Below are positions 4,290-61,353 of a DNA stretch of 61,798 bases, piece after piece. Source of the stretch: Candidatus Schekmanbacteria bacterium (lineage in GTDB: Bacteria > CSSED10-310 > JACPHN01); the NCBI GenBank assembly GCA_016188575.1, contig JACPHN010000132.1, positions 1-61,798 on the forward strand, in the 5' to 3' direction. Numbering within the stretch: the first letter of the stretch is position 1; each line of letters starts with the position of its first letter. The position numbers were made by a program, and so were the translations under genes. Under the pieces are notes generated by a model. That model had not been told where the DNA came from. It saw nothing but the letters and a program-made list of their open reading frames with translations, and did no database searches.

Positions 4290-4757
4290 GGTGTCGCTGC
4301 TCTATGGGTGGCGGCGGCGGGACCGGGGCGCGACGGGGCGGCGCACTCCCTCCGCGCGGCGTTGGAGCCCGACGGTAGCAGCTTTTCCTGGCTCGCGTCA
4401 ATACGCTCGAAACGTCTTGCATCCACCGCCAGTGCTACTGCAAGTTGCGCGGAAAGCGCATCGCGAAGATCCCCGACTTCACCTCCCCCCGCACGGGGGA
4501 GGCACGGAGGGAGGGAGCTGTCACCTCGGCGCCGAACAGATGGGCGATTCAGGAACGCGGCGGGCGGCGGTTTGTCACGCCATTGACAAGAAATCGCCAA
4601 GCTCGCCCGGCCGGCGCCCAATAGCGGCCCGAGGCCCGCATGCCCGACGCCCTCAGCGCCCGCTCGCTGCGTGGCACGAAGCATGCAAGCCAGGCGGCGT
4701 TACCAAACGCAAACGTCATCCGCAGCGCAAAGCGATCCGTCCCGAGGAGACCGAAAA
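4290..4757. other. Intergenic region with a dispersed repeat copy
   Basis: About 470 bases without a convincing gene. It holds one inverted-orientation copy of the dispersed palindromic repeat (4421-4510), an isolated TTGACA at 4583-4588 without a good -10 at 17 bases, and the leader of the Pro/Glu-rich protein gene. Confidence 0.6.
4421..4510 (-). repeat. Dispersed intergenic palindromic repeat, copy 1
   Basis: Read on the minus strand this copy has a GC palindrome (CCTCCCCC/GGGGGAGG at 4483-4502), then a GATGCGC-TTTCCGC block, a GCAACTTGCAG block and a GGCGGTGGAT end. The same order of blocks is found at 11255-11340, and in parts at several other intergenic sites. Confidence 0.75.
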
Positions 4758-5285
4758 ATGCAAGCAATCGATAGCTCGACCCTGTCAACGAGTGCCTACC
4801 TCTACGCCGATCCCATGGTTTCGGACCCGATCACAACGGAGCCCGTTACGCCCGAACCCATCACGACCGAACCCGCTCCGGCCGACCCCATCGCGGTCGA
4901 ACCGGCGCCAGCAGACGGCTACGAGGACCTGACACCAGTCGACGAAAGCGCTCCCGCGGACCCCGTCGAAGCCGCTCCGCCGATATCCGAAACGGCACCC
5001 ACCGAAACCGCCGGCGGCGCGACCGACGCCACGGCCACCGATTCGTCGGGGTCCACGGACTCCTTCGAAAACATCGAGGGCGATGTGGCCGCAACCAGCA
5101 CCTCAGGCACCAGCGCTCTGCAAGACCTGTTTGCCGCGCGAAAATCTCTTGGCGATGCCCGGCGCAATGTCAAGGACCAGTTCCTGCGAGGCGTCGGTGA
5201 GTCCATGGCCTCCGGTTCGGGAGTGGTCGGCGCCCTCCGCGACCAGCTCGCCTTTGCGCGCCTGGCAATGCCCATGCGCGTCTGA
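4758..5285 (+). CDS. Pro/Glu/Thr/Ala-rich hypothetical protein
   Basis: A 175-aa protein. The start at ATG 4758 is supported by GAGGAG 8 bases upstream. Residues ~15-60 are a low-complexity acidic stretch built from repeats such as PITTEPVTPEP and PAPADPIAVEP, continuing as an Ala/Thr/Ser/Asp-rich disordered segment to about residue 115. The last ~50 residues look folded and amphipathic (LQDLFAARKSLGDARRNV, VVGALRDQLAFARLAMP). There is no signal peptide. A strong terminator follows directly (5313-5343). I do not recognise the family. A long disordered N-terminus before a small helical C-terminus is also seen in the CHAP-like protein at 14461-15549, and a secreted or surface role is possible but unproven. 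Confidence 0.7.
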   Translation: MQAIDSSTLSTSAYLYADPMVSDPITTEPVTPEPITTEPAPADPIAVEPAPADGYEDLTPVDESAPADPVEAAPPISETAPTETAGGATDATATDSSGSTDSFENIEGDVAATSTSGTSALQDLFAARKSLGDARRNVKDQFLRGVGESMASGSGVVGALRDQLAFARLAMPMRV

Positions 5286-14460: not shown

Positions 14461-15549
14461 CTAGGATTGAGCGGGTTGAGCCTGCCCGCTCTTGTTCGGG
14501 CGGTAGTAGGCCGCGACGTCCTTCAGGCGGCGCGACTTGCTGGCAACAACCGCGGTGCTGCGCAGCCTTCCGGTCTTCGGGTCGCGATCCTCGGTGTTGC
14601 CGGACATGGTTTCCACCGTTCCGTTTTCGTTGACCTTGGTGACGACAGAGTGATGGTATGGATAGTTCTTCTCGACGATAACGTCACCGACCTGGACAGA
14701 CTTCTCGAACTTGGCTCGATCTTCCTTGTACGTCTTGGGATTCGTGAACTGCGGCTCATCGACGCGGGTCACATCGCCTGTCATCTTCCCCGCGTCCTTC
14801 CCACCCAGATTCCACCGTGCGTCGACTCCCGCGTCCCGCAGGGTTTTCGTCGCCCAAATACCACACCAGTCCCGGCCGTCCGGCTTCAGCTTGCCCTGGG
14901 GGTTCTTCGTGTAGTAACTTTCCTTGTCCTGTGCTTGCTGCCCGGTTGCCTCTTCATAAGTCTTCTTTAGCTCATCCCAGCCCTTGGGCTTGCCATCGGC
15001 GCCTGTCTGGCTCGGGTCAATGGATCCTTCTTTCTTCTCTGCTTCTTCCTTGATCTTCTTCTGAACGGGTGACAGATTGGCATCATCGGGCTTCGCGTCT
15101 CCCGTGCCGTGCGTGGCCAAAGCGGGGTCAAATCCGCTGCCCGCACCATCCGGTAGCGCTTGTTTCGGGGTATCGGGCACGGCACCTTTGAGCTCACTTG
15201 GGTCCACGCCGTTGCCGTTCGTGCCGTTCGCTGCGCTCTTGAGCCGGGTGCCGACCTCGGCGCAGGAACGGTCGATGGATGCCGTGAGGTCGGGCCGCTC
15301 GGCGGTTTCGCTGGTGGCCGAGGTGCCATTCGCTCCGCCCTCGAGGCCCGCGCGCGCGATCCCCAGGCTGTCCGGCGCCGCGACCTCCTCGTAGCTATCC
15401 GTGCGCCCCACCGCTCCTGCGTCGCCGCCCTCCTCGGGGACCTCGACCTGCACCGCCGATGCGCTCTGGGTCTCTGCTGAAGCCTGCGTCTCGCCGGTCT
15501 CTGGCCATGTGGTAGTTGGTGAGGGGGCCGCTTGCACTTCCATGGACAT
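14461..15549 (-). CDS. CHAP/NlpC-like domain protein with disordered N-terminus
   Basis: A 362-aa protein. Residues ~1-190 are low-complexity Ala/Glu/Thr/Ser/Gly sequence with no signal peptide. Residues ~230-345 carry a papain-like amidase fold: the candidate catalytic Cys in DWCGIWATKTL, then VGDVIVEKN, the candidate His in PYHHSVVTKVNENGTVETMSGN, and a basic C-terminal strand. CHAP/NlpC enzymes usually cleave peptidoglycan peptides or glutathionylspermidine-like amides. The start ATG 15549 has a perfect GGAGGAAACC Shine-Dalgarno sequence; longer upstream frames are spurious. Absence of a Sec signal suggests a cytoplasmic role or delivery by a specialised secretion system. The TTGTACAA pair at 15797-15824 lies in its upstream region. 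Confidence 0.8.
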   Translation of the reverse strand: MSMEVQAAPSPTTTWPETGETQASAETQSASAVQVEVPEEGGDAGAVGRTDSYEEVAAPDSLGIARAGLEGGANGTSATSETAERPDLTASIDRSCAEVGTRLKSAANGTNGNGVDPSELKGAVPDTPKQALPDGAGSGFDPALATHGTGDAKPDDANLSPVQKKIKEEAEKKEGSIDPSQTGADGKPKGWDELKKTYEEATGQQAQDKESYYTKNPQGKLKPDGRDWCGIWATKTLRDAGVDARWNLGGKDAGKMTGDVTRVDEPQFTNPKTYKEDRAKFEKSVQVGDVIVEKNYPYHHSVVTKVNENGTVETMSGNTEDRDPKTGRLRSTAVVASKSRRLKDVAAYYRPNKSGQAQPAQS

Positions 15550-15699
15550 TGGTTTCCTCCAGTGTGGTCTCGTAGTCGTTGACCGTGCGGTGCTGGCGCT
15601 CAGTCGGGCGCCGCCTCTTTTCGTGCATGACCGGAGCTTTGCAAATCCGGCGCCATCGCGGTGCGCAAGCTCGTTGAGAGAGGCGCTGCGGCAAGCAGC

Positions 15700-15796: not shown

Positions 15797-15824
15797 TTGT
15801 ACAAGATGGCGTCATCTTGTACAA
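15797..15824. promoter_or_regulatory. TTGTACAA pair, 20-bp spacing (site A)
   Basis: Two palindromic octamers, 15797-15804 and 15817-15824, form a perfect 12-bp inverted repeat (TTGTACAAGATG, GCGT, CATCTTGTACAA). The geometry equals TTGTAC-N17-TACAAA on plus and TTGTAC-N17-TACAAT on minus, so it could be a symmetric pair of promoters or an operator. It lies between the CHAP-like gene and the AAA+ regulator. Confidence 0.65.
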
Positions 15825-16119
15825 ATGCCGCTCCCGCGCCCTGGCGTCAGAACACGCGCGCGCGAGCCCGACGCCATTCCTGCGCGTCAACGACGTCTGG
15901 CGACGCGCCGCGCGGGAGTCTGCCGGTCCCGCGGCCGCCGCCATCACCGCAGTGATGCCCTACGCCCGCCGGCCACATTGGCAGCAGTGCAAAGATGCCG
16001 ATTGCCACCTCGCCGCTATTCTCGCGACGCCGCCTCGCATCGTAACCATGGTCCCCGCGCCGTGATGCAGACAGCATGGGGCGCCGTGGCGCCGCAACCA
16101 GATACCGGCGCTCGTGGCG

Positions 16120-16290
16120 CGCGACCGGCCACCCTCCCACCTCGTCTCCCCCGATTCGGGGGAGGCAGGGAGGGGGGCGTGACCGTACTAGTGTTGCTGC
16201 GTGGCCGCGGCGGTTACGCCCGCCGGCGCCTGTCGCCCGCAGCGGCCCGCTCTGGGCGCCCCTGCGTGGTGGATTCAGGACCATCCATCC
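16120..16290 (+). repeat. Dispersed repeat, copy 4 (divergent)
   Basis: A palindrome CTCCCCC-GATT-CGGGGGAG near 16145-16163 and a GGTGGATTCAGG end at 16268-16279, in the same order as the full copies but with a different middle. Confidence 0.45.
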
Positions 16291-16312
16291 GCTTGCGCGT
16301 CCCCGGTCGCCG

Positions 16313-16320
16313 TTGTACAA
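16313..16320. promoter_or_regulatory. Single TTGTACAA (site B)
   Basis: One exact octamer 61 bases before the AAA+ regulator start, flanked by CGCCG and CGGCG arms that could form a small hairpin around it. Confidence 0.45.
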
Positions 16321-16381
16321 ACTCTCGGCGAGATCTCCCAATCCTCATCGCGGAGAAAGCGGCTCGGTGTGCCCGGAGTGG

Positions 16382-18019
16382 ATGCGCGGCAACTCATCGT
16401 CTCGTGACAAGGCGGCGGCGTCACACCTGCGGGTGCTTCGCTATCTGCTCGGCCGCGACTACCTCAAGCGCGCCGACTGGAGCTTTGCCCTTCGCGACCT
16501 CGCGCAAATGGTCAAGGAAGCCCTGGGCGCTCAGGAGGCGTTCGTGGCGCTCTTCGACTCCGCCGCCACGGGGTGGAGCGCGACCACGGCCGAAGGCGAC
16601 CAGCTCGGTGACGAGGAAATCGGGGCCAGGGCCTCGCGCACGGTCCTCGAGCAGGTGCGCACACAAGTGGAACCGATCCTCGGCAGCCTGCCGCCAAGCG
16701 TGACCTCCGAAAGCATCCTGGTCAACCAGCTCGACTCGGTGCTCGCCATACCCATCCACTGGTGGGACGTCAAGGCCGAGCAGCCGACGCGGCGTTTCGG
16801 CGGCTGCCTGTACGCTCATCGCAGCTCCCCACAGCCTTCCTTCTCCGAGGCGGATATCGCCCTCGCCCTGGACATCTGCGAGATTGCGCAGCGCAGTCTG
16901 AATATCTTGCGATATTTGCGACGCGTTGAATCCGATCTGGAGTCGTCCGAGCTGGAGCTGCAGCGCCATCGCCAGCGCACGGCGGTCGAGTACCGGCTCG
17001 GTGCTTACGCGACCCGCGACCCGTATTTCGCCGAGACCGTCCTTGAACCGCTCAAGCGCGTCTCGGGAGCCGACAAGATCGGCCTGCTCATTCTCGGCCC
17101 CACGGGCGCCGGCAAGACCTTCCTCGCGGAGGCCTACCACTACGAATGCGCGCGGCGAAACGGGCCATTCGTGGTCCTGGACTGCTCGCAGGTGACCTCC
17201 GGCGAGACGCTTTCGGCGGAGCTATTTGGTTACGCCCCCCACTCCGGTTTCGCCAATTCTCCGGCCAAGGGAAGCGTGGGAGCGGCGGAGCGCGCCGACA
17301 AGGGCACGCTGTTCATCGACGAAATCTCGTGCTTGCCTCCCGACCTCCAGCAGCGGCTGCTTGGCCTGAGCCATTCAGGGAGCTTCCAGCCTCTTGGCGG
17401 CGCCGAGCGAAAACACGTCGACATCCAGATCATCGCCGCAACCAACGAAAACCTGCGAGACCTCGTCGCCCAACGCCGCTTTCGCGAGGACTTGTTCTGG
17501 CGTATCAGCGAAGTGACGATCGAGCTCCCCCCCTTGTCCAGCCGCGCCGCGGACATCCCGGATCTCGCCGCCCGCATGTTCGACAAGGCGCGAGACCGTT
17601 TTGGGCGAACCGACCTCAGCGGGTTTTCCGGCGCAGCGCTGGACGTGCTCCGCAACCACGACTGGTCGCGCGCGGGCAATATTCGGGGTCTGGAGCATAC
17701 CGTGCGGCGTTCGGTGCTGCTGGCTCCCCCCGGAATCGGTCAGTTGAGCGGGGAGCACGTCAAGTTCGACGCGGTGCATCCGGGCACGGCGCAGAGCGGT
17801 CGCCAGCTCGGGGCGCCGGCGCAGGGAAAAGCAGGCGCGCCCGCATCTGAGGACGACTACGCGCCGGAAGTTCGCGAAGCGATCGAGGCGGTTCGCCGGC
17901 ATGGCCACGGCACGGCAGCGGCGCGAGAGCTCGGAATCAGCTACGCGGCCCTGATCGGCAGACTGCGCAAGGCAGGGCTCGCGGTGCGAAAGGTTCGCGT
18001 GCAGTCATTCGATAGCTGA
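16382..18019 (+). CDS. AAA+ response regulator-like protein lacking GAFTGA
   Basis: A 545-aa protein built like a bacterial enhancer-binding protein. Residues ~30-180 look like a GAF-type sensory domain, ~180-205 a linker helix, ~205-445 the AAA+ domain with Walker A GPTGAGKT (239-246), Walker B TLFIDEI (309-315) and the REDLFWRISEVTIELPPL segment, and ~495-545 a Fis-type helix-turn-helix (GTAAARELGISYAALIGRLRKAG). The sigma54-contacting GAFTGA loop is absent: after ELFGY comes APHSGFANSP. It therefore probably does not activate sigma54 polymerase in the usual way. The ATG at 16382 is chosen from domain content; the frame is open further upstream without domain match. It precedes the giant Ser/Thr kinase by 107 bases. 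Confidence 0.85.
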   Translation: MRGNSSSRDKAAASHLRVLRYLLGRDYLKRADWSFALRDLAQMVKEALGAQEAFVALFDSAATGWSATTAEGDQLGDEEIGARASRTVLEQVRTQVEPILGSLPPSVTSESILVNQLDSVLAIPIHWWDVKAEQPTRRFGGCLYAHRSSPQPSFSEADIALALDICEIAQRSLNILRYLRRVESDLESSELELQRHRQRTAVEYRLGAYATRDPYFAETVLEPLKRVSGADKIGLLILGPTGAGKTFLAEAYHYECARRNGPFVVLDCSQVTSGETLSAELFGYAPHSGFANSPAKGSVGAAERADKGTLFIDEISCLPPDLQQRLLGLSHSGSFQPLGGAERKHVDIQIIAATNENLRDLVAQRRFREDLFWRISEVTIELPPLSSRAADIPDLAARMFDKARDRFGRTDLSGFSGAALDVLRNHDWSRAGNIRGLEHTVRRSVLLAPPGIGQLSGEHVKFDAVHPGTAQSGRQLGAPAQGKAGAPASEDDYAPEVREAIEAVRRHGHGTAAARELGISYAALIGRLRKAGLAVRKVRVQSFDS

Positions 18020-18126
18020 GGTGCAGTGGCGCCGAAATCCTCACGAGGCGGCTGGGGCGCGGCGCGGCGCGGCCGAATACGGAGCCGGCCCCGGACCCAC
18101 GGCCACCGGCACCGAACGGACCACAG

Positions 18127-21100
18127 ATGAAGCAAATGCGCACCTTGCTGGCGGCCTCTGGCCCCATCCCCGCGGCCATCGGGCCCTACCGCGTGCGCGA
18201 GCGGCTCGGCGTGGGCGGCATGGGAGTCGTTTACCTGGCCGAGCAGCCGGAGTCGGGTGAACGCGTCGCGCTCAAGACCGTGCTCGTTCCCGACGATCGC
18301 ATGCTGTCGAGCATTCGGCGCGAAATCCGCGGCCTGGCCCGGCTCGCACATCCGGGCATCGTGCGGATCGTGGCGGAGGGCCTTCACGAAGGCTTGCCAT
18401 GGTATGCCATGGAGCTGCTGGATGGCAGCTCACTCACCGCCTACTGCGACACCGCGGTTACCGCGCCGCGCGCGCTCGCCGAGGGCGGCGAAGAGCCGCT
18501 TCCATCCCATCCGAGCGATCTGTACAGGAGGACGGTTGGGGATCCAGTCCCCGGGCCGACCCCACAGGATCCACGCTCCCCGGCATCGCTCGCGAGCGCC
18601 GAGGTCCTGCGCGCGAGGGCGTCCGCCCCACTTGCCGATGCGGTGGCGGCCGGGCTCACGGTAATTCACAGGCTGTGCGAGCCGCTTTCCTACATGCATG
18701 GTAAGGGCATCATCCACCGGGACCTCAAACCCGACAATATCCTCGTTCGCGACAACGGCCTGCCCGTGATTCTCGACTTCGGCCTGGCGACCCCCGCCGA
18801 CACGGAGGTCAGCCGCGAGGTCCTGAGCGTCGACCAGGGCGTCGCCGGAACGGTGCACTACATGGCGCCGGAACAAATCCGCGGCGAGCTCGTGGACGCG
18901 CGCGCCGATCTCTACTCGCTCGGGTGCATTCTCTACGAGCTCGTCGCCGGCCGCCTGCCTTTTCTCGGAGAAACTCCCGTCGAGGTCATGCGTAAACACC
19001 TCACGGGAATCCCCACTCCGCCCTCGCTATTCGCCAAGGATCTTCCCGGAGCGCTCGAAAAGCTGATCATGCGGCTGCTGGAGAAAGACCCTCGCGATCG
19101 GCTCGGTTACGCCACCGACGTTTCCCGTGGGCTAGCCCCGTTTGTCTGGAACGATGCCGCCGCCTTTGGCGTCTCGCAACCGCGCACCTACCTCTACCGG
19201 CCCGGCTTCGCCGGCCGCGAGCAGGCACTTCACCGGCTCGAGGTGGACCTGGAAAGTATGGACGGCGAGGCAGGCGCCATGGTGTTCATCGGCGGCGAGA
19301 GCGGCATTGGCAAAACCAGGTTTGCGATGGAGCTCGCCAGGCGCGCCATCAAGAACGAAATCGAGGTGATGACCAGTGAATGCCTGCCGCCGACTTCGCT
19401 CGGCGGCGAGCAAGCCACCGCGCTACAAGCATTTCGCCGAACCCTGCAGCGCATCGGTGATCTATGCCGGCGTCGCAATCGCGCGATCGACGCCGGCGAC
19501 CTAGCAAAAAGCATGCGCATCCTGAGCGCTTACGAGCCGTCACTGGAAACCCTCTCCGGCCCCTACCAGGCGCCGCAACCACCGCTTCCGGAGCTGCCGC
19601 CGGAAGAAGCCCGCCTGCGCGCCTTTGCGGCGCTGACGGAGGCGTTTGAGGTCCTCACGGAAGAGCAACCGATGCTGCTGATCCTGGACGACATTCAGTG
19701 GGCGGATGAGCTGACCGTCGGGTTCCTGGAGTACCTCGCCCAGGGCGATGACCTCACGCAGATGCAGCTCGTCGTGGCCGCTACATATCGCACGGAAGAA
19801 GTGAGCGAAAGCCTCCGCAATCTGTTGAAGGCACAGAATGTAATCGTGTACGCGCTCGGAAAGTTGGATTGTTCCGCCGTGGAGAGCATGATTGGAAATA
19901 TGCTTTCCATGTATCCAGCGCCGCGCGTCTTTTCTTCCTTTTTATTTAGATACTCTGAAGGAAATCCATTTTTTGTATGTGAGTATTTACTTGCGGCCGT
20001 GCAACACGGAATTCTGTGGCGTGATAGCGTTGGCTATTGGCAGGTAGTAGGAGTTGAAGGAGATGACAGCAGCGCTGACACCGCTACCTATGAATCGCTT
20101 TCGATACCGCGCAGCATCCGCGAGCTTGTCCACAGGCGCCTCCAGGGCCTGAGCGGCAATGGACGCTTGCTGGTAGAAGCCGCCGCCGTCATCGGCAGGG
20201 AGGTGCCGCCGCCTGTCGCCGAGGCCCTTAGCGGACTGGTGGACGTGGACTTTCTCGATGCCTGTGAGGAGCTCCTCGCACGCTGCGTGCTCGAAGAAAC
20301 CAGGGCCGGTGGCTTGCGTTTCACGCACGACAAGATCCGTGAAGTCGCCTACGAGCAGATCGCCGGGGAACGGCGACGCGTGCTCCACGCGCGGGTGGCA
20401 GGAGAGCTCCGCCGCGTCTACGGACCGCAGGCCGGCGAAGTGGAGGCGCAGATCGCGCACCACTATGAGGCGGCGGACGCCAGAGCGCTGGCAGTAGCAG
20501 CGTATCGCCGCGCGGCGTGCCACGCGCGAAGCGGGGCGGCGCTGGATGAGGCGCTCCGCTGTCTGGGCAAGGCGCTTGCGCTTTCCAGCAGCGCCGATCG
20601 GCACGAGGAGGTCGACATTCTCCGCGAACGGGCTGCGGTATGCGACCTGGTCGGCCGGTGGGTGGAGGCGCAGGCGGATCTCGCGCGGGCGGAGACCATG
20701 GCATCCGTGATCGGCAATAATGAAGCTCTTTGCGCGATCTTGCTTGCGGAATCCGATATCAAGCTGCGGAGCGGCAAAGCCGCAGAAGCTCGCGACCTGG
20801 CCACGCGCGCGGCGACTCTCGCGCACGGGTTGTCGGACGAGGAAAAGCGGGCCTCGGCGCTCAACGCTTTGGGCGCCGCAGAATGGCGCAGCGGCTACCA
20901 TAATGATGCGCTGCTCGCGCTGCGGGAAGCGCTGGTCGCAGTAGATGCCCTCGGCGAGCCGGCGACGCGGTCACAGACGTTTCACTACCTGGGCCTTGTG
21001 AACCAGGAGCGGGGTGAGCTCGATGAGGCGATGTCCTGCTACCAGGAAGCGATGCGCTCCAGAAAACAGTTGGGAGATCAGCGGGGCAGTGCAGCAGTGC

Positions 21101-22140
21101 TTATGGACATGGCCAATCTTGCGTGGCGTCGCGGCGAGGCTTCACAGGCGAAGCGACACTTCGAGCAAGCGCTGACAATCTATGAGGAGATCGGCGATTA
21201 CCCCCACCAGGCGACGGCGCTCGGCAACCTCGGAGTCGTCGTGATGGTGCGCGGGGAGCTCGGTGAGGCCGTGCAGATGTTCAAGAAAGCGTACGACATG
21301 TGCAGGGCGATCGGCGACCGGCGTGGCGCGCTGCGCAACCTCAACAACATGGCACTGGTCGAGCGCGACCAGGGAAGCTTCGGCTCGGCGCTGGAACGGT
21401 TCCGGCGCGTGGTAGCGGCACACCGCGAAGCGGATGATCCGCATGGCCTGCAGCTTTCCCTGTACAATGCGGCGGCCGTGCTGGTAGATTGCGGCGGCTT
21501 CGATGAGGCTCTGGAGCTTCTCCGGGAGGCTGAGGAGATCTGTCGCCGGCTGGAGGATCGTTTCCACCTGGCCGAATGCCTGCAGAAGCGCGGCGAAGCG
21601 GCCTGGTATCGAAAGCAGTGCGATGTGGCCGCGAGCACGTGGCAAGAGGCCGAGGAAACCGCAGTGGCCATCGGTTACGTCACGCTGGAGCTGCCGATTC
21701 GGCTGTGGCGAGCAATCGCCTCCTGCGGCCAGGAGGAGGCGCCGCCGGGGGCAGATCCCCTGGCGCTTCTCGAGAGGAGCCGTGAGATCGGCGACGCCGA
21801 CCTCATCAGTGAGGTCGGGCTCCTGGCGGCGGAGCTCTTGCTGCGACGGGCCGGTGACGATGATTCGGCCCGCGCCGCGCTGGCCGCGGCCGGGGCCGCG
21901 ACCAACCACATGCGCAGGCAGGGCGCTTCACGCGACCTGGCCTACGCATTCTGGTTGCAGTATGTGGCGCGCGAGCGCCTTCGCGACGCCGCCGGGGCGA
22001 CGGCTTCCCTGCACGCCGCCATCGGCAACGTCGCGGGGCTCAGGAACAAGATCCCGCCAGAGCTCCTGCCCGGGTTCCTCCACCACCCGAGAATCGCCGC
22101 CATTCTTGCCGCCGGGGCGCAGGCCGGCATCTTGCTGTGA
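18127..22140 (+). CDS. Giant Ser/Thr kinase - AAA ATPase - TPR protein (1)
   Basis: A 1337-aa soluble signalling protein. The kinase domain (~20-330) has the Gly loop GVGGMGVVYLAE, Lys50 in VALKTV, HRDLKPDN (catalytic Asp199), DFG (217-219) and APEQ. Between the hinge and the catalytic loop is an unusual ~60-residue Pro/Ala/Ser-rich insertion (~115-170). A linker with FAGREQ leads to an AAA_16/STAND-like NTPase: Walker A GGESGIGKT (389-397) and Walker B LLILDDIQW (517-525). Residues ~760-1240 contain many TPR-like helical pairs (GDYPHQATALGNLGVVVMVRGE and similar). The combination resembles kinases of STAND-type signalling and TOMM-associated systems. No clear Shine-Dalgarno precedes ATG 18127. 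A sharply AT-rich patch lies at ~19890-20045. It is paralogous to 57745-61353. Confidence 0.9.
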   Translation: MKQMRTLLAASGPIPAAIGPYRVRERLGVGGMGVVYLAEQPESGERVALKTVLVPDDRMLSSIRREIRGLARLAHPGIVRIVAEGLHEGLPWYAMELLDGSSLTAYCDTAVTAPRALAEGGEEPLPSHPSDLYRRTVGDPVPGPTPQDPRSPASLASAEVLRARASAPLADAVAAGLTVIHRLCEPLSYMHGKGIIHRDLKPDNILVRDNGLPVILDFGLATPADTEVSREVLSVDQGVAGTVHYMAPEQIRGELVDARADLYSLGCILYELVAGRLPFLGETPVEVMRKHLTGIPTPPSLFAKDLPGALEKLIMRLLEKDPRDRLGYATDVSRGLAPFVWNDAAAFGVSQPRTYLYRPGFAGREQALHRLEVDLESMDGEAGAMVFIGGESGIGKTRFAMELARRAIKNEIEVMTSECLPPTSLGGEQATALQAFRRTLQRIGDLCRRRNRAIDAGDLAKSMRILSAYEPSLETLSGPYQAPQPPLPELPPEEARLRAFAALTEAFEVLTEEQPMLLILDDIQWADELTVGFLEYLAQGDDLTQMQLVVAATYRTEEVSESLRNLLKAQNVIVYALGKLDCSAVESMIGNMLSMYPAPRVFSSFLFRYSEGNPFFVCEYLLAAVQHGILWRDSVGYWQVVGVEGDDSSADTATYESLSIPRSIRELVHRRLQGLSGNGRLLVEAAAVIGREVPPPVAEALSGLVDVDFLDACEELLARCVLEETRAGGLRFTHDKIREVAYEQIAGERRRVLHARVAGELRRVYGPQAGEVEAQIAHHYEAADARALAVAAYRRAACHARSGAALDEALRCLGKALALSSSADRHEEVDILRERAAVCDLVGRWVEAQADLARAETMASVIGNNEALCAILLAESDIKLRSGKAAEARDLATRAATLAHGLSDEEKRASALNALGAAEWRSGYHNDALLALREALVAVDALGEPATRSQTFHYLGLVNQERGELDEAMSCYQEAMRSRKQLGDQRGSAAVLMDMANLAWRRGEASQAKRHFEQALTIYEEIGDYPHQATALGNLGVVVMVRGELGEAVQMFKKAYDMCRAIGDRRGALRNLNNMALVERDQGSFGSALERFRRVVAAHREADDPHGLQLSLYNAAAVLVDCGGFDEALELLREAEEICRRLEDRFHLAECLQKRGEAAWYRKQCDVAASTWQEAEETAVAIGYVTLELPIRLWRAIASCGQEEAPPGADPLALLERSREIGDADLISEVGLLAAELLLRRAGDDDSARAALAAAGAATNHMRRQGASRDLAYAFWLQYVARERLRDAAGATASLHAAIGNVAGLRNKIPPELLPGFLHHPRIAAILAAGAQAGILL

Positions 22141-22357
22141 GCGTCTCCGGTGGTGCCACCGCCCCGGCCTGAACCCAATGAGAAGGACGACAGCCTGGTG
22201 CAGAACGGACGATCTTGTACAAAAACGCATTGATTTGTACAACCAATCCGAGTCGCAGTCCGCAGGCGCGGCTGTCTATTCTCCCCGCCCGGCGCCCGGC
22301 GCGGCGGCTCCGGGCCGGCGCATCGACGGCCCGGTGTGATCGGCCAGGGCCACTTGT
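22141..22357. other. Gap between convergent genes with TTGTACAA pair
   Basis: A 217-base stretch without a gene. Apart from the octamer pair at 22215-22242 it has a GC-rich stretch (22285-22325) able to form several GC hairpins. Confidence 0.55.
22215..22242. promoter_or_regulatory. TTGTACAA pair, 20-bp spacing (site C)
   Basis: Octamers at 22215-22222 and 22235-22242, with the same 20-base period as site A but unrelated spacer bases. It lies just past the end of the giant kinase gene and before the 3' end of a minus-strand gene, so an ordinary gene promoter is not expected at this position. Confidence 0.6.
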
Positions 22358-23023
22358 CTACGCTTGAAGCTGGCGGGCGAGCTTGGCCGCCGTCGTTCTC
22401 GTGGTCCGTTGGCGTCCGGTATCGTAGACCTGCGCCTGTGCACCGACGGCCTCGGTGGCGCCAAATGGACCGATATCGATGCCGGGTTTCCAGAAACATC
22501 CATGGATTTGGTAGTCAGTCTCGATAATCGTAACCTCTGTCCCGCCGGGGAGCTCCTCAAGCGCGGCAGCGGCGCCTTCGCGGGCTGCCCGTTCGGCAAC
22601 CTCGCGCCCTATGCATTCCTTTGCATCGCACGTGATCACGTACTTGGTCTCCCGACCTGCCCCCCGCATTGCGCCGCTGGCATGTCGATCCACGGTAATG
22701 ATCACCTTCGTCTTGCCCTCTTCGCGCCTCTTTGCTGCCGCCTTCGCGACGAGCTCGTCGCCGACCACACCCGGTGGCGCCTCGACTGCGGTTTCGACAT
22801 CGACGCTCACCACGGTCTCGTTGCGTGTGACCGGCGGAGACTCCGTGGCCGCGGCAATGAGCTGCCGGCTGGTCTGCAAACCGCCAGCGAGCCTCTCCTT
22901 GAACACGATACGGATCGGCTTCCCGTCCTCGTCGCGCTCCACGAGCACACTCCGATTTCGCTCAGCATTCGTCTCTCCCCCCGCGTGACGCGGATTTGGG
23001 GAAGCTCGCGAGACGAGCGACAT
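22358..23023 (-). CDS. Hypothetical protein with repeated Ala/Glu-rich region
   Basis: A 221-aa protein with no family that I recognise. ATG 23023 follows GGAG with 6 bases spacing. Features are an N-terminal charged segment (RSVLVERDEDGKPIRIVFKERL), a VSVDVETAVEAPPG strand, TKVIITVDRHASGAMRG, KYVITCDAKECIGREVAERAAREGA and a C-terminal TEVTIIETDYQIHGCFWKPGID end. Beta-strand/helix alternation suggests a folded cytosolic protein. The opposite strand is also open over the same span, but this frame has the better amino-acid composition and start site. It converges on the giant kinase with the TTGTACAA pair between them. Confidence 0.6.
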   Translation of the reverse strand: MSLVSRASPNPRHAGGETNAERNRSVLVERDEDGKPIRIVFKERLAGGLQTSRQLIAAATESPPVTRNETVVSVDVETAVEAPPGVVGDELVAKAAAKRREEGKTKVIITVDRHASGAMRGAGRETKYVITCDAKECIGREVAERAAREGAAAALEELPGGTEVTIIETDYQIHGCFWKPGIDIGPFGATEAVGAQAQVYDTGRQRTTRTTAAKLARQLQA

Positions 23024-23219
23024 CGCGTTCTCCAAGTTGCTGGCGGGTCCTTTGGCGACGATCCGCGCGCGATCGGTGGCGGGCGGGCACACCGCGCCTA
23101 CACCATGCAACTTCCGCGCCATTACCGCGCCACAAGTGTCGCGCGCAGCTCCGGGGCACCCCAAATTGCCCACCCACTTGGGGTCGCGTCGCTGCGGATG
23201 TCGCTCTGTCATCCCGGCC

Positions 23220-25773: not shown

Positions 25774-26913
25774 ATGGAAGAAGTCATTATCCCTGTCGCA
25801 TTGTTCTTCACAGCGATCGGTCTGCCGGTGCTCGTGCACTTCGGAAAATACTACTTGCGCCACGTCGAGCGCCGGCTCGAGATCAGCGCCGGTTCCGGAG
25901 GCCACGAGGCGAGGGCGCAGCTTGAAGAGCTCCAACGCGAAAACAAGGCCCTGCGGGTGCGCGTCGAAAACCTGGAAACCATTGTTACTTCGGTCGACCT
26001 CGAGCTCAACGTGCGTCTGAACAAGGTGCTGTCCGAAGTCTCGCAGGCGAACCTGCGAGGACTTCCAGGTGGCGCCGCGGATGCCAGCACGCACGTCTTG
26101 CGGCCAGGCCAACTCCTGGGAGCGCGATACGAGATTCGCGGCGAGATCGGGCGGGGCGGCATGGGGGCGGTGTACAGAGCGTGGGATCCGCGCCTGTCCG
26201 AGGAAGTCGCCATCAAGGTCATCCTCCCGGTCTACTGGGATAGTGACGCGGCGCGTAAGCGGTTTGTGTTGGAGGCGGGAGCGGCGCGGCGCGTCGCCCA
26301 TCCCAACGTGCTGCGCGTGTATGACATCAACGTGGACGGGGATCTGATCTATATCTCGATGGAGTACTTTGCCGGACAGCGGCTGAGCGACGTCATGGCA
26401 GACCGTGGCCCCTTGCCGCTGCCGGAGATTCTCGCGGTGGGGACGGCAATGTTGGATGGCCTCGCCGCGGCCCATGATGCCGGCGTCATCCATCGGGACC
26501 TCAAGCCACAGAACATCCTCGTGGGGACGAGCGGGCAGCTCAAGATCATTGACTTCGGCCTCGCGGCTCCGCCTCGCGGAAGCGGTTTGACCGCCACAGG
26601 AGTCGTCCTCGGGACGCCGGAATACATGTCCCCCGAGCAGCTCCGGGGCCAACGTCCGGACATCGGGACCGACATCTATGCAGCAGGAGTGATCTTGTAC
26701 GAGCTGGCGACGGGGAAGCGCCCGTTTTCGGGTGAGGGTCCCATTGCAATCGCCCTGGCGCACAGCCGCGAGCTGCCCGCGCCGCCGTCGCAGCACCGCC
26801 CGCTCCCGCGCGACCTCGAACAGGTCATCCTGCGTGCATTGGAGAAGGAGCCGGAGAACCGGCACCGCTCCGCCAACGCGATGTGCCAGGCACTGCGCGC
26901 CGCACTCGGCTAG
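25774..26913 (+). CDS. Membrane-anchored Ser/Thr protein kinase
   Basis: A 379-aa kinase with an unusual N-terminus: a single transmembrane helix (residues ~4-26, IIPVALFFTAIGLPVLVHFG), a coiled coil (~30-85), then a complete Hanks-type kinase domain (~105-375). Motifs: GRGGMGAVYRAWD, VAIKVI, HRDLKPQN, DFGLAAP and SPEQLRG. The helix-plus-coil arrangement resembles PspB, so the kinase probably sits at the membrane with its catalytic domain in the cytoplasm. ATG 25774 follows GAGGCAGG; a TTG at 25761 overlapping the aldolase stop is an alternative. No PASTA or extracytoplasmic domain is present. Confidence 0.9.
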   Translation: MEEVIIPVALFFTAIGLPVLVHFGKYYLRHVERRLEISAGSGGHEARAQLEELQRENKALRVRVENLETIVTSVDLELNVRLNKVLSEVSQANLRGLPGGAADASTHVLRPGQLLGARYEIRGEIGRGGMGAVYRAWDPRLSEEVAIKVILPVYWDSDAARKRFVLEAGAARRVAHPNVLRVYDINVDGDLIYISMEYFAGQRLSDVMADRGPLPLPEILAVGTAMLDGLAAAHDAGVIHRDLKPQNILVGTSGQLKIIDFGLAAPPRGSGLTATGVVLGTPEYMSPEQLRGQRPDIGTDIYAAGVILYELATGKRPFSGEGPIAIALAHSRELPAPPSQHRPLPRDLEQVILRALEKEPENRHRSANAMCQALRAALG

Positions 26914-57744: not shown

Positions 57745-60700
57745 TCAGCCCACGCCGGTCGCTCGGCGGTTGCCGCGAAGCATCCGCAGAAGCGCGGGTG
57801 GGTACGTGGTCAGGTGCTCACCGCAAACCAGCTCATCTTCACAACCCGTCGCAAGGGCGCGCTGCGCGCGGTCGAGCATGCGTAGGGCCCGCCCGGGCGC
57901 GCTCGTAGTTTCCACCGTCGTCCCGGTAGGACCCGCCACGCGGAGCGCCTCGTCCAGGAACGAGCTGGCCGACGCGCCACCGGCGAGCGCGAGATGCCCG
58001 CGTTCGCACAGGCACCAGGCCAGGTGCAACGGATCATGCAACCGCCTCAGGGTCGCTTCAGCCTCCGCAAGTCTCGCCACCAGCTCCGACCGTTGGCTTC
58101 CCAGCCGGCGACCCAGGACGACTTCGCCAATCGTGAAGATTGCCTGAGCGCGAACGTTGCCAATCTCCTTGAGCATCTGCAGAGCTTCCGCGAACCGCCT
58201 GCGGGCGTCTTCGGTGTCCCCATTTTCTCCGGCAAGCACAGCGAGGTGCCCGAGCGCGTACGCCTCCTGCTCGCGGTAGCCCGTTTGCTTCGCCAGTGCC
58301 AACGCCTGCTCCGTGTATTTCCAGGAGCTCTGGTTGTTTCCCTCCACCCAGGCAATGATGCCCATGTTCTGGAGTGCCATCCACTCCCCGCCGCGATTTC
58401 CGAGCGCGCGCGCGGTTTGCAGCGCGCGGCTGTAGAGGCGCTTGGCCTCTTCGGTGTTGCCCTCGAAAGTCGCGACCAGGGCGAGCCCGGCGAGGTTGCG
58501 GCCGATGCTCGGCTGATCTCCGCGCTTCCGGGACCACTCGAGCGCGCGCAGAAAGTGCTTGCGGGCGAGCGCCATGTTACCGTTGGAAACTTCCACGAGC
58601 CCCAGCGTCCGAAACATCTCCCCGAGCCCGCTATCAACGCCGCCGGCCCGATGTTCCTTGATGACCTCGCCACAGGCCGCGATGGCACCTGCAGAATTTC
58701 CAAGCCTGCGCAAGTTCTCCGCGATGCGCCGCTGCGCGTCGACGGCCAGTTGGCGCAAACCCACACGGCGCGCCGCTTCGTGCACCTGTTCCAGGAGCTC
58801 CCCGGCCTCCCGCAGCTTGCCCGCAGGCGACAATGCCCGATCGGCCAGCTCCAGTTTCACACGCAGGCAGGACTCCGAGGTAGCGTCGCACAGGTGCAAC
58901 GCGGAGCGGAAGAGCACCTCCGCCTCCTGATAGGCGTAGCACTGGCACGCCTGGCGCGCTCCGCCGAGATAACACTCGCGCGCGCGGCCGACGGCCCCGG
59001 CGCTCTCCCAGTGGTACGCGAGACCCGCCAGGTGCTCGACGCGCAGCTCGCGCACCGCCGCGCCGATCACGGTCGCCGCCGCAACGTGCAGTGCCGTACG
59101 GCGACGGGGATCGAGTCGCCCGTAGGCGATATCGAGAAGAGCCTCCTGGGTCACCCTCACGGCTCCGAGCCGGTCATTCTCCACGATGTCGCGGCGCGAT
59201 AGCTCGGCGATTCCGTCCAGAAACGCCTCATCGCCTAGACCCGACATCACCTGGAGCTGCGACATCGGCGCCTTGCGACCCGCAACGGCCAGCGCCGCGA
59301 GGACCTCGCGCCCCGCCGGGGACAACGACTCGAGCCGCTTCTCGACCAGTGAGCGCAGTGACCCGGTAATGGGAAAGGCGGCGAGCTGCCCGGTACCGGT
59401 CGTTGCCTGCAGAGCCGAATCCGCCAGCTTCCAGCGGCCGAGCGCGTCGCGGCGAAGCACCCCTTGCTCCACTGCGGCGCGCAGATACTCGGCGGCGTGA
59501 AAGGGTATCCCGCGCGCCACCTTGATCACCAGAGAAACCAGTTGAAGGGGCGGAAATGGCGCCGCCAACATGTCCTTGACGATGGCCGCGATCGCGTCCG
59601 TGGCGAGTGGCCTCAGGGCCACGACGCTGACCAGAGCGGAGCGCCCGAGCGCCAGCAGCGCGGCGGGCGCTTCCTCGGGCCGGTACGCGCCGACCAGCAG
59701 CCAACCCCACTGCTGCGGCGTTTTGTGCTCGAGGCAGTGGGTCAGGTAGGCGAGCGAGAGCTCATCGATCCATTGGAGGTCATCGAGAAGCAGCACGGGT
59801 GGTGCGGTCATGGCCAGTGCCGAAAGCACGGCATCGAGATGCTCGAACAGCCGCGCCCGGGCGGCCTCCGGCGGCAGCTCTTCTGGGGCAGCGGCGGCGT
59901 CGCGAGGGCTCGGGTACTGCGTGAGCGCTGGTTCGTAGGGCGCCAGGAACGGAATGTGCGGCCCAAGCACGCGATCGAGCTCGCGGCCGCGACGCTTTCG
60001 ACAGTGCTCGGCGATGGTCCGCAGGGGCCGCCGCAGCACGGCCAGCGGCCCGCCGTCCTCACTGCGGCAGGCTCCCAACATGACCACGGCGCCTTCGGCG
60101 CGGGCCATGAGCGCTACCTCATTGGCCAGACGGGTCTTCCCCACTCCGGCCTCGCCCGCCAGCAGCACCGCACCGCCGCGGCCGGAGACCACAGACTGCA
60201 GACGCGACTTGATCGCGGAGAGCTCTGCCTCCCGACCGGACAGGCGCGGGCGGTAGAGGTACGGGCGAATCGTGGGGCAGCCGGCCCAGGGACTGTCGTC
60301 GGCGCCGAACTTCGCGAGCAGCGTCGCGACATCACTGGCGTGGCCGACCCGATCTTGAGGCAAGCGGGCGAGCAACCGCATCACCAGAGCCTCGAGCTCC
60401 ATCTGCACCCAGGGAGCGACCTCGCCGAGCGGTGGGGCATCGGTGTTGGTCTTCAGGTAGAGCAGGTTCGCTCCGGCGGCGGCGCCAAAAACCGGCTGGC
60501 CGGCCAGCAGCTCATACACGATGCACCCAAGAGAATACAGATCTGTGCGCGGATCGACAGCCGCGCCGCTGATCTGTTCCGGCGCCATGTACGCCAGCGT
60601 GCCCATCGGCGAGATCTGGCCGTGGAGTTGCTCGCGCCACCAGCTCCCGCTCTCTTCGTCCGGTATCGACATTGTCAGGCCGAAGTCGACAATTACGGGC

Positions 60701-61353
60701 CAGCCGTCCGGGCGGACGACGATGTTGTCCGGCTTCAGGTCGCGGTGGACGACTCCCTCGCCGTGCGTGTAGGCGAGCACCTGAGCGACGCGGGCGACCA
60801 GCGTCAGGACCGCGGCCACGGAGTCGTGATCCGGCTCCGGGAAGTCGCCGCCGGAGGATGCTGGGGTGGCCGGCGGAATGGCGGCGGATTCCGGGGGTGC
60901 ATGCGGCGGGTCGGTGTTGTCCGCAGGGCGAGGCGCGGCCATGCCGGCGGGGGTCAGGAACGCAGCGGTGCCGGTATCGCGCATGGGCGGCGCCGTCTCG
61001 TAGTACGTCGAGTGGTCTATCGAGGGTTCAGAATCGACGCGTGGCGTATGCGGGGAGAGCGCGAAACGCCCATACCGCCTGAGAGTCTGGCCGGCGAGCA
61101 GCTCCATGGCGCACCAGGGCATGCCGTCCTGAACGCCCTGGTCGAGGATCTTCACCACGCCCGGATGCTGGAGCTGCGCCAGCGCGCGGATTTCGGCGCG
61201 TATTGCCTGAATCAGGCTGGGCTCGCTAATGCGTACCGTCTTGACCGCCACCTCGCGGCCCGAAGCACCGTGTCTGGCGCGCGAAACGACACCCATCCCG
61301 CCTTTGCCGATGAGCTCCAGGATTTCGTACGGGCCGATGCGCACAGGTGTCAC
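57745..61353 (-). CDS. Giant Ser/Thr kinase - AAA ATPase - TPR protein (2)
   Basis: A 1202-aa protein, paralogous to 18127-22140. The kinase domain (~7-330) has IGKGGMGVVSRARH, Lys38 in VAVKTV, HRDLKPDN (Asp205), DFG (223-225) and APEQ. As in the paralogue, a long Pro/Ala/Ser-rich insertion (~95-180, about 85 residues) splits the domain between hinge and catalytic loop. An LSGREAEL linker leads to the AAA_16/STAND-like ATPase with Walker A GEAGVGKT (400-407) and Walker B LLLDDLQW, then TPR-like helical pairs over ~750-1130. The start is GTG 61353 just after GGAGGTGA; a GTG three codons later is an alternative. The Gfo/Idh gene follows. Confidence 0.9.
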   Translation of the reverse strand: MTPVRIGPYEILELIGKGGMGVVSRARHGASGREVAVKTVRISEPSLIQAIRAEIRALAQLQHPGVVKILDQGVQDGMPWCAMELLAGQTLRRYGRFALSPHTPRVDSEPSIDHSTYYETAPPMRDTGTAAFLTPAGMAAPRPADNTDPPHAPPESAAIPPATPASSGGDFPEPDHDSVAAVLTLVARVAQVLAYTHGEGVVHRDLKPDNIVVRPDGWPVIVDFGLTMSIPDEESGSWWREQLHGQISPMGTLAYMAPEQISGAAVDPRTDLYSLGCIVYELLAGQPVFGAAAGANLLYLKTNTDAPPLGEVAPWVQMELEALVMRLLARLPQDRVGHASDVATLLAKFGADDSPWAGCPTIRPYLYRPRLSGREAELSAIKSRLQSVVSGRGGAVLLAGEAGVGKTRLANEVALMARAEGAVVMLGACRSEDGGPLAVLRRPLRTIAEHCRKRRGRELDRVLGPHIPFLAPYEPALTQYPSPRDAAAAPEELPPEAARARLFEHLDAVLSALAMTAPPVLLLDDLQWIDELSLAYLTHCLEHKTPQQWGWLLVGAYRPEEAPAALLALGRSALVSVVALRPLATDAIAAIVKDMLAAPFPPLQLVSLVIKVARGIPFHAAEYLRAAVEQGVLRRDALGRWKLADSALQATTGTGQLAAFPITGSLRSLVEKRLESLSPAGREVLAALAVAGRKAPMSQLQVMSGLGDEAFLDGIAELSRRDIVENDRLGAVRVTQEALLDIAYGRLDPRRRTALHVAAATVIGAAVRELRVEHLAGLAYHWESAGAVGRARECYLGGARQACQCYAYQEAEVLFRSALHLCDATSESCLRVKLELADRALSPAGKLREAGELLEQVHEAARRVGLRQLAVDAQRRIAENLRRLGNSAGAIAACGEVIKEHRAGGVDSGLGEMFRTLGLVEVSNGNMALARKHFLRALEWSRKRGDQPSIGRNLAGLALVATFEGNTEEAKRLYSRALQTARALGNRGGEWMALQNMGIIAWVEGNNQSSWKYTEQALALAKQTGYREQEAYALGHLAVLAGENGDTEDARRRFAEALQMLKEIGNVRAQAIFTIGEVVLGRRLGSQRSELVARLAEAEATLRRLHDPLHLAWCLCERGHLALAGGASASSFLDEALRVAGPTGTTVETTSAPGRALRMLDRAQRALATGCEDELVCGEHLTTYPPALLRMLRGNRRATGVG

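Follow-up and report, generated by a model that had tools for sequence, protein, structure and literature searches.

Paired palindromic octamers as probable sigma-54 enhancers for a kinase-linked regulator without GAFTGA in a Candidatus Schekmanbacteria genome

The activator Nla28 of Myxococcus xanthus combines an AAA+ sigma-54 interaction domain with an HTH at its C terminus, and two 8-bp palindromic half sites, CT(C/G)CG(C/G)AG, lie upstream of the -24/-12 elements that it serves (PMC7910581). In sigma-54 activators the GAFTGA loop is described as invariant and has been used as a survey filter (PMC12316311, PMC3162934), and homologs without it are treated as sigma-70 regulators (PMC3162934). 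TyrR, DhaR, HupR, and VpsR retain the sigma-54-activator fold with GAFTGA altered or deleted, and they are reported or argued to work with sigma-70 promoters (PMC3162934).

Here, we analyzed a window (the whole stretch of 61,798 nucleotides of contig JACPHN010000132.1, from a Candidatus Schekmanbacteria bacterium) in which a regulator gene and a Ser/Thr kinase gene form a module accompanied by pairs of the palindromic octamer TTGTACAA (Table 1). The arrangement resembles that of Nla28 in its paired half sites and in the AAA+ domain and predicted HTH of its regulator; it differs in the sequence of the half site, in the kinase encoded beside the regulator, in the replacement of the GAFTGA loop, and in a single enhancer geometry that would be common to 14 paralogs. 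The likeness to TyrR, DhaR, HupR, and VpsR lies in the activator fold with an altered GAFTGA, but the family in this genome conserves its variant loop, which is in most cases longer by two residues, and the operators stand at sigma-54 promoters. The 18127-22140 protein and its paralogs have the Pkinase, AAA_16, and TPR order of bacterial Ser/Thr kinase-AAA-TPR proteins; unlike others of that kind, they are regularly encoded directly 3' of a GAF-type activator, and we infer that kinase and activator are functionally linked. Our preferred reading, to which we assign a probability of about 0.78, is that the TTGTACAA pairs function as upstream activating sequences and that the encoded regulator activates the sigma-54 promoters of a dispersed regulon. 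An earlier, sequence-only reading had seen here its best candidate for a new regulatory system; what we find is a new and variant instance, but the kind of regulation, a sigma-54 enhancer with its activator, is known.

Table 1. Features of the module, its octamers, and the associated sigma-54 elements and proposed targets
Feature	Location	Strand	Description
CHAP-like proposed target gene	Window, 14461..15549	-	362 aa; MSMEVQAA N-terminal part, CHAP-like C-terminal part
Sigma-54 element of CHAP-like gene	Window, 15640..15655	-	TGGCGCCGGATTTGCA; score 15.8; 142 bp from pair A
Pair A, TTGTACAA-N12-TTGTACAA	Window, 15797..15824	no strand	TTGTACAAGATGGCGTCATCTTGTACAA; 28-bp dyad with 12-bp arms; proposed upstream activating sequence; 248 bp from start of gene 14461-15549
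Single TTGTACAA	Window, 16313..16320	no strand	62 bp ahead of regulator start
Regulator	Window, 16382..18019	+	AAA+ sigma-54 interaction domain without GAFTGA; GAF-like part at N terminus, predicted HTH at C terminus
Ser/Thr kinase-AAA_16-TPR protein	Window, 18127..22140	+	1337 aa; domains from Pfam
Pair B, TTGTACAA-N12-TTGTACAA	Window, 22215..22242	no strand	TTGTACAAAAACGCATTGATTTGTACAA; 75 bp past kinase stop
ORF	Window, 22358..23023	-	Resembles C-terminal half of C161 target (29% identity, E 4e-14)
Sigma-54 element upstream of that ORF	Window, 23106..23121	-	TGGCGCGGAAGTTGCA; score 16.7
Exact 20-bp pairs	Window; C111, C161, C210; C239		Two; one each; triple
Sigma-54 elements	C210		TGGTACGGATATTGCA at 93 bp; TGGCACCCCGATTGCA at 116 bp
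Sigma-54 element	C111		TGGCGCACCGGTTGCA, 96 bp from octamers
Sigma-54 element	C161		TGGCTCGGGACTTGCA, 83 bp from octamers
Sigma-54 element, weaker	C239		CGGCATGAGTATTGCT, 200 bp from octamers
Second C210 target	C210		FG-GAP/cohesin-like; hydrophobic N-terminal segment
C111 target	C111		fn3/DUF7948 protein, 1.8-kb-residue; hydrophobic N-terminal segment
C239 target	C239		Unassigned protein; hydrophobic N-terminal segment
Target at single octamer	C112		CBM96 protein; hydrophobic N-terminal segment

The octamer occurs five times in the window, at 15797, 15817, 16313, 22215, and 22235, exactly where the sequence-only reading had placed it and nowhere else there; dinucleotide shuffles gave a mean of 0.07 copies and never reached five. 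Both window pairs have the exact 20-bp period, with unlike spacers, that had been claimed for them. Across the 9.2-Mb genome the octamer by itself is not over-represented, because it has 31 copies and the reversed control word has 43, and we dropped the bare count as evidence. The over-represented feature is the pairing: 13 of the 31 octamers stand at exact 20-bp steps, forming seven pairs across five contigs, where chance would supply about 0.0001 such pairs in the whole genome. The spacing, which had been called conserved, is strong rather than absolute, because a further pair (C210:22498/22522) has a 24-bp period, a point that we count against our reading of the pairs as enhancers. The sites had also been described as bracketing the module; two of the seven pairs do lie in the window, but five are on other contigs, so that they do not serve the module only, and a genome-wide count of pairs and their neighbors, the check that had been proposed, ties them to apparently regulated genes across the genome. 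Exact 20-bp pairs were absent from 40 other genomes examined, the phylum is sparsely sampled (8 genomes), and a literature search returned nothing relevant on TTGTACAA. The lone octamer at 16313 has a degenerate partner, TTGCGCGT, at 16293 (that is, at -20) and no sigma-54 element was found near it; it is possibly an autoregulatory site.

Sigma-54 elements were scored with a -24/-12 matrix that we wrote from the consensus TGGCACG-N4-TTGC(A/T), the same consensus as is given in PMC7910581, and elements scoring at least 15 were called strong. Five of the seven paired loci have a strong element 83-142 bp off, facing a gene with a good start, and a sixth has a weaker one 200 bp off, so that a repeated palindrome lies 83-200 bp from -24/-12 at six of seven loci. 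These distances fit those of published enhancers, which are placed upstream of -24/-12 at 80-150 bp (PMC7910581, PMC7057263). Apart from pair B, the elements lie on one side of the octamers and are directed away from them, and good start codons follow 72-172 nt past the elements. None of 300 shuffles matched the score of the element at 15640-15655. Strong elements are much rarer at unpaired octamers (one of 14, at C112, TGGCACACCGATTGCT, 119 bp off, with a weaker match at one more), and the difference between paired and unpaired octamers is significant (p = 0.006, Fisher's test) on a background of 0.8% per side. At C238, a half-degenerate pair, TTGTACAA-N12-TTGCGCAA, is accompanied by a moderate element 213 bp off. 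The genome has one copy of rpoN (C130, E 4e-63). Pair B has no sigma-54 element in the 400 bp searched, which counts against an enhancer role, and it lies ~870 bp downstream of the element at 23106-23121. Sigma-54 enhancers are known to work at a distance, whichever side of the promoter they are on, and ORF 22358-23023 is a possible distal target of pair B. Elsewhere in the window, a strong element, TGGCACGAAGCATGCA (4672-4687, +, score 17.5), stands 70 nt ahead of ORF 4758-5282, which encodes a Thr/Pro-rich protein of 175 aa and has no TTGTACAA sites; it is probably under a different activator.

The regulator and 13 paralogs form a 14-member family in the genome (46%-59% identity), and sister operators were searched in the ~19 kb surrounding each paralog (in shorter stretches where a contig ended). 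A blind scan of these loci for repeated palindromic octamers returned GTGCGCAC twice with an 18-bp period around C220; extended, the word becomes TGTGCGCA-N12-TGCGCACA, with the same 28-bp geometry as the TTGTACAA pairs. A search of all 9.2 Mb that tolerated one mismatch found three copies of this pair, every one of them inside 12.4 kb at C220 (control, 0). At two of the three sites a sigma-54 element is present, 84 bp off in one case and 219 bp off in the other; the third, which falls within a subtilase-like gene that follows the kinase, has none in the 400 bp searched, and this again counts against the enhancer interpretation. At C90, the pair CGCATGCG-N12-CGCATGCG has its single exact genomic copy just upstream of the regulator, in the gap that separates this from a divergent dockerin-like gene; the sigma-54 element of that gene lies 87 bp from the pair. 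Exact 8-N12-8 dyads lie upstream of three of the 20 sigma-54 elements at paralog loci, with 1.3% expected for each (p = 0.002; two of the three elements come from one locus). The recognition helices, SYAALIGRLRKAGL in the window regulator, SRGVLVWQLRKAGL at C220, and SRDCLIWQLRKSQL at C90, differ in line with the operator words at a constant geometry. A word that varies from regulator to regulator within an unvarying geometry is our main reason for assigning the operator to the encoded regulator, a link that is well supported at the level of sequence; the earlier proposal of a cooperative operator for the encoded AAA+ regulator is thus the most likely one, the sister modules having same-geometry pairs of their own. 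For most other paralogs, the operator was unreadable in the loci searched, a further point against, and a scan for dyads in the DNA immediately 5' of every paralog failed to discriminate except at C90. Two candidates, both unproven, are ACACGCA-N15-TGCGTGT at C235 (one copy in the genome, sigma-54 element 83 bp off) and ACACGCGT-N13-ACGCGTGT at C53 (241 bp from a sigma-54 element). The paralog set offers a natural experiment on the joint change of HTH and enhancer sequence at fixed geometry. Around another paralog (L051, C185:62500-82000), 19.5 kb hold five sigma-54 elements (scores 15.4-17.9), most of which precede genes with a signal-peptide-like start; no operator common to them was found in that interval.

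The AAA+ domain of the regulator is clear (PF00158, E 2e-40), and PF00158 with Walker motifs was found in all 14 family members. Its GAF match is weak (0.0014; best paralog, 7e-10) and its HTH matches (HTH_8, E 0.014; HTH_1, E 0.0004) are both under the curated cut-off; the predicted structure (pLDDT 85) has a C-terminal three-helix domain, and the predicted fold matches NtrC1, ZraR, FlrC, and PspF. In place of GAFTGA, all 14 members carry an SG(F/Y)-type loop (ELFGYAPxSG(F/Y)ANAPxxGR-type, usually two residues longer than the canonical ELFGHEKGAFTGA...), in which SG and an adjacent aromatic residue are present in 14 of 14; a GAFTGA-type loop was read in 12 of 13 other activators of the genome. 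We therefore file the regulator as a variant enhancer-binding protein rather than a standard member, and count the replacement against its acting as an enhancer-bound activator. The pairs could instead be sigma-54 enhancers for another, GAFTGA-bearing activator, with the regulator of the module as a repressor or a passive member of a mixed ring. Besides the loop counts, the view that GAFTGA-less homologs are sigma-70 regulators (PMC3162934) and the existence of hetero-hexamers such as HrpR/HrpS (PMC7057263) favor this alternative, and a repressor or mixed ring would leave the same traces as a working variant loop. We nevertheless consider it unlikely: With the sister operators confined to their own modules, there is no evident second activator, and the conservation of the variant loop looks like the work of selection. 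The placement of the operators at sigma-54 promoters suggests that this loop works on sigma-54. If that is true, a family without GAFTGA at sigma-54 promoters breaks the invariance rule, and GAFTGA-filtered genome surveys miss regulators.

It is distinctly improbable that the octamers bind an unrelated regulator and lie close to the module by accident; five of the seven 20-bp pairs are indeed away from it, on other contigs, but in two sister modules the arrangement recurs with words that are absent elsewhere in the genome as exact pairs. The idea of face-to-face -35/-10 elements (TTGTAC-N17-TACAAT), that is, a symmetric promoter for a sigma-70-type factor read in both directions, draws on the 17-bp spacing and partial hexamer match of the TTGTACAA pairs and is scarcely credible, mainly because the operator word changes with the regulator while the geometry stays (the TGTGCGCA and CGCATGCG sister operators have no such hexamers), and also given that the hexamers are not kept at every site, that there are a 24-bp pair and a triple locus, and that the pairs have, at the 83-200 bp typical of an enhancer, sigma-54 elements followed by good starts.

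From the sites, sigma-54 elements, gene starts, and sister operators, all of which can be pointed to in the genome sequence, we infer binding, phosphorylation, activation, and a functional altered loop on sigma-54. With the pairs as upstream activating sequences, dimers of the 16382-18019 regulator would sit on the palindromic octamers, spaced by two helical turns, and dimers of the C233 paralog, whose recognition helix is identical (SYAALIGRLRKAGL), probably bind the same octamers. The neighboring kinase, the presumed signal partner, would switch the regulator on, the regulator would then assemble into an ATPase ring and make contact, by looping, with sigma-54 RNA polymerase poised 83-200 bp off, and a small dispersed regulon, mostly of secreted proteins and including the adjacent CHAP-like gene, would be turned on. 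At least 10 of the 14 modules have a Ser/Thr kinase gene directly 3' of the regulator gene, and the paralog set offers a way to find out what is controlled by large Ser/Thr kinase-AAA-TPR proteins. Because the readable regulators have octamers of their own, the 14 regulators, mostly kinase-paired, would act as parallel, insulated circuits. We give even odds to the broader picture of a lineage-specific set of 14 mostly kinase-linked activators that use a non-GAFTGA loop on sigma-54 and their own diverged 28-bp enhancers as insulated switches for secreted proteins. Conservation in relatives, to which the sequence-only reading had looked, did not emerge: Relatives of the regulator in genome contigs reached only 23%-39% identity in a search that possibly left out records of its own genome, no family member was found at E 1e-55 in 385 other genomes, and, because no orthologous module was found outside its own genome, the operators have no cross-species footprint, which we likewise count against our reading.

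The products of the regulon appear to be mostly secreted, since most targets have a signal-peptide-like hydrophobic segment at the N terminus; one C210 target with such a segment is cysteine-protease-like in our own reading. The segment is missing in the 14461-15549 protein and the C161 target, which share their N-terminal part (51% identity over 118 aa), and some targets that lack a signal peptide may be exported by another route. Gene 14461-15549 starts with an ATG preceded by a Shine-Dalgarno sequence, 90 nt past the -12 element; the CHAP match of its product (E 0.0037) is below cut-off, and its predicted structure (pLDDT 40) is not usable. A third protein with an MSMxVQ-type N-terminal part is encoded at L110 1501-3105 (C213), with neither TTGTACAA nor a strong sigma-54 element nearby. 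Behind the sigma-54 element at the C235 paralog, the product of L056 10497-11336 shows a weak match to HrpK1/HrpF, a family of type III secretion translocators (E 5e-6, just under cut-off).

Six of the 14 regulators (L050, L052, L055, L056, L058, and L059) have an extra domain of ~60 residues between AAA+ and HTH, with the sequence HGGxxxxLAxDxEVAxALGY...PxSTLxxRLRxLxL, and this domain may change the operator site. The window itself encodes a second Ser/Thr kinase-AAA-TPR protein (57745-61353, -), 37% identical to that at 18127-22140, and contains an additional kinase-domain match at ~26128-26895 (+).
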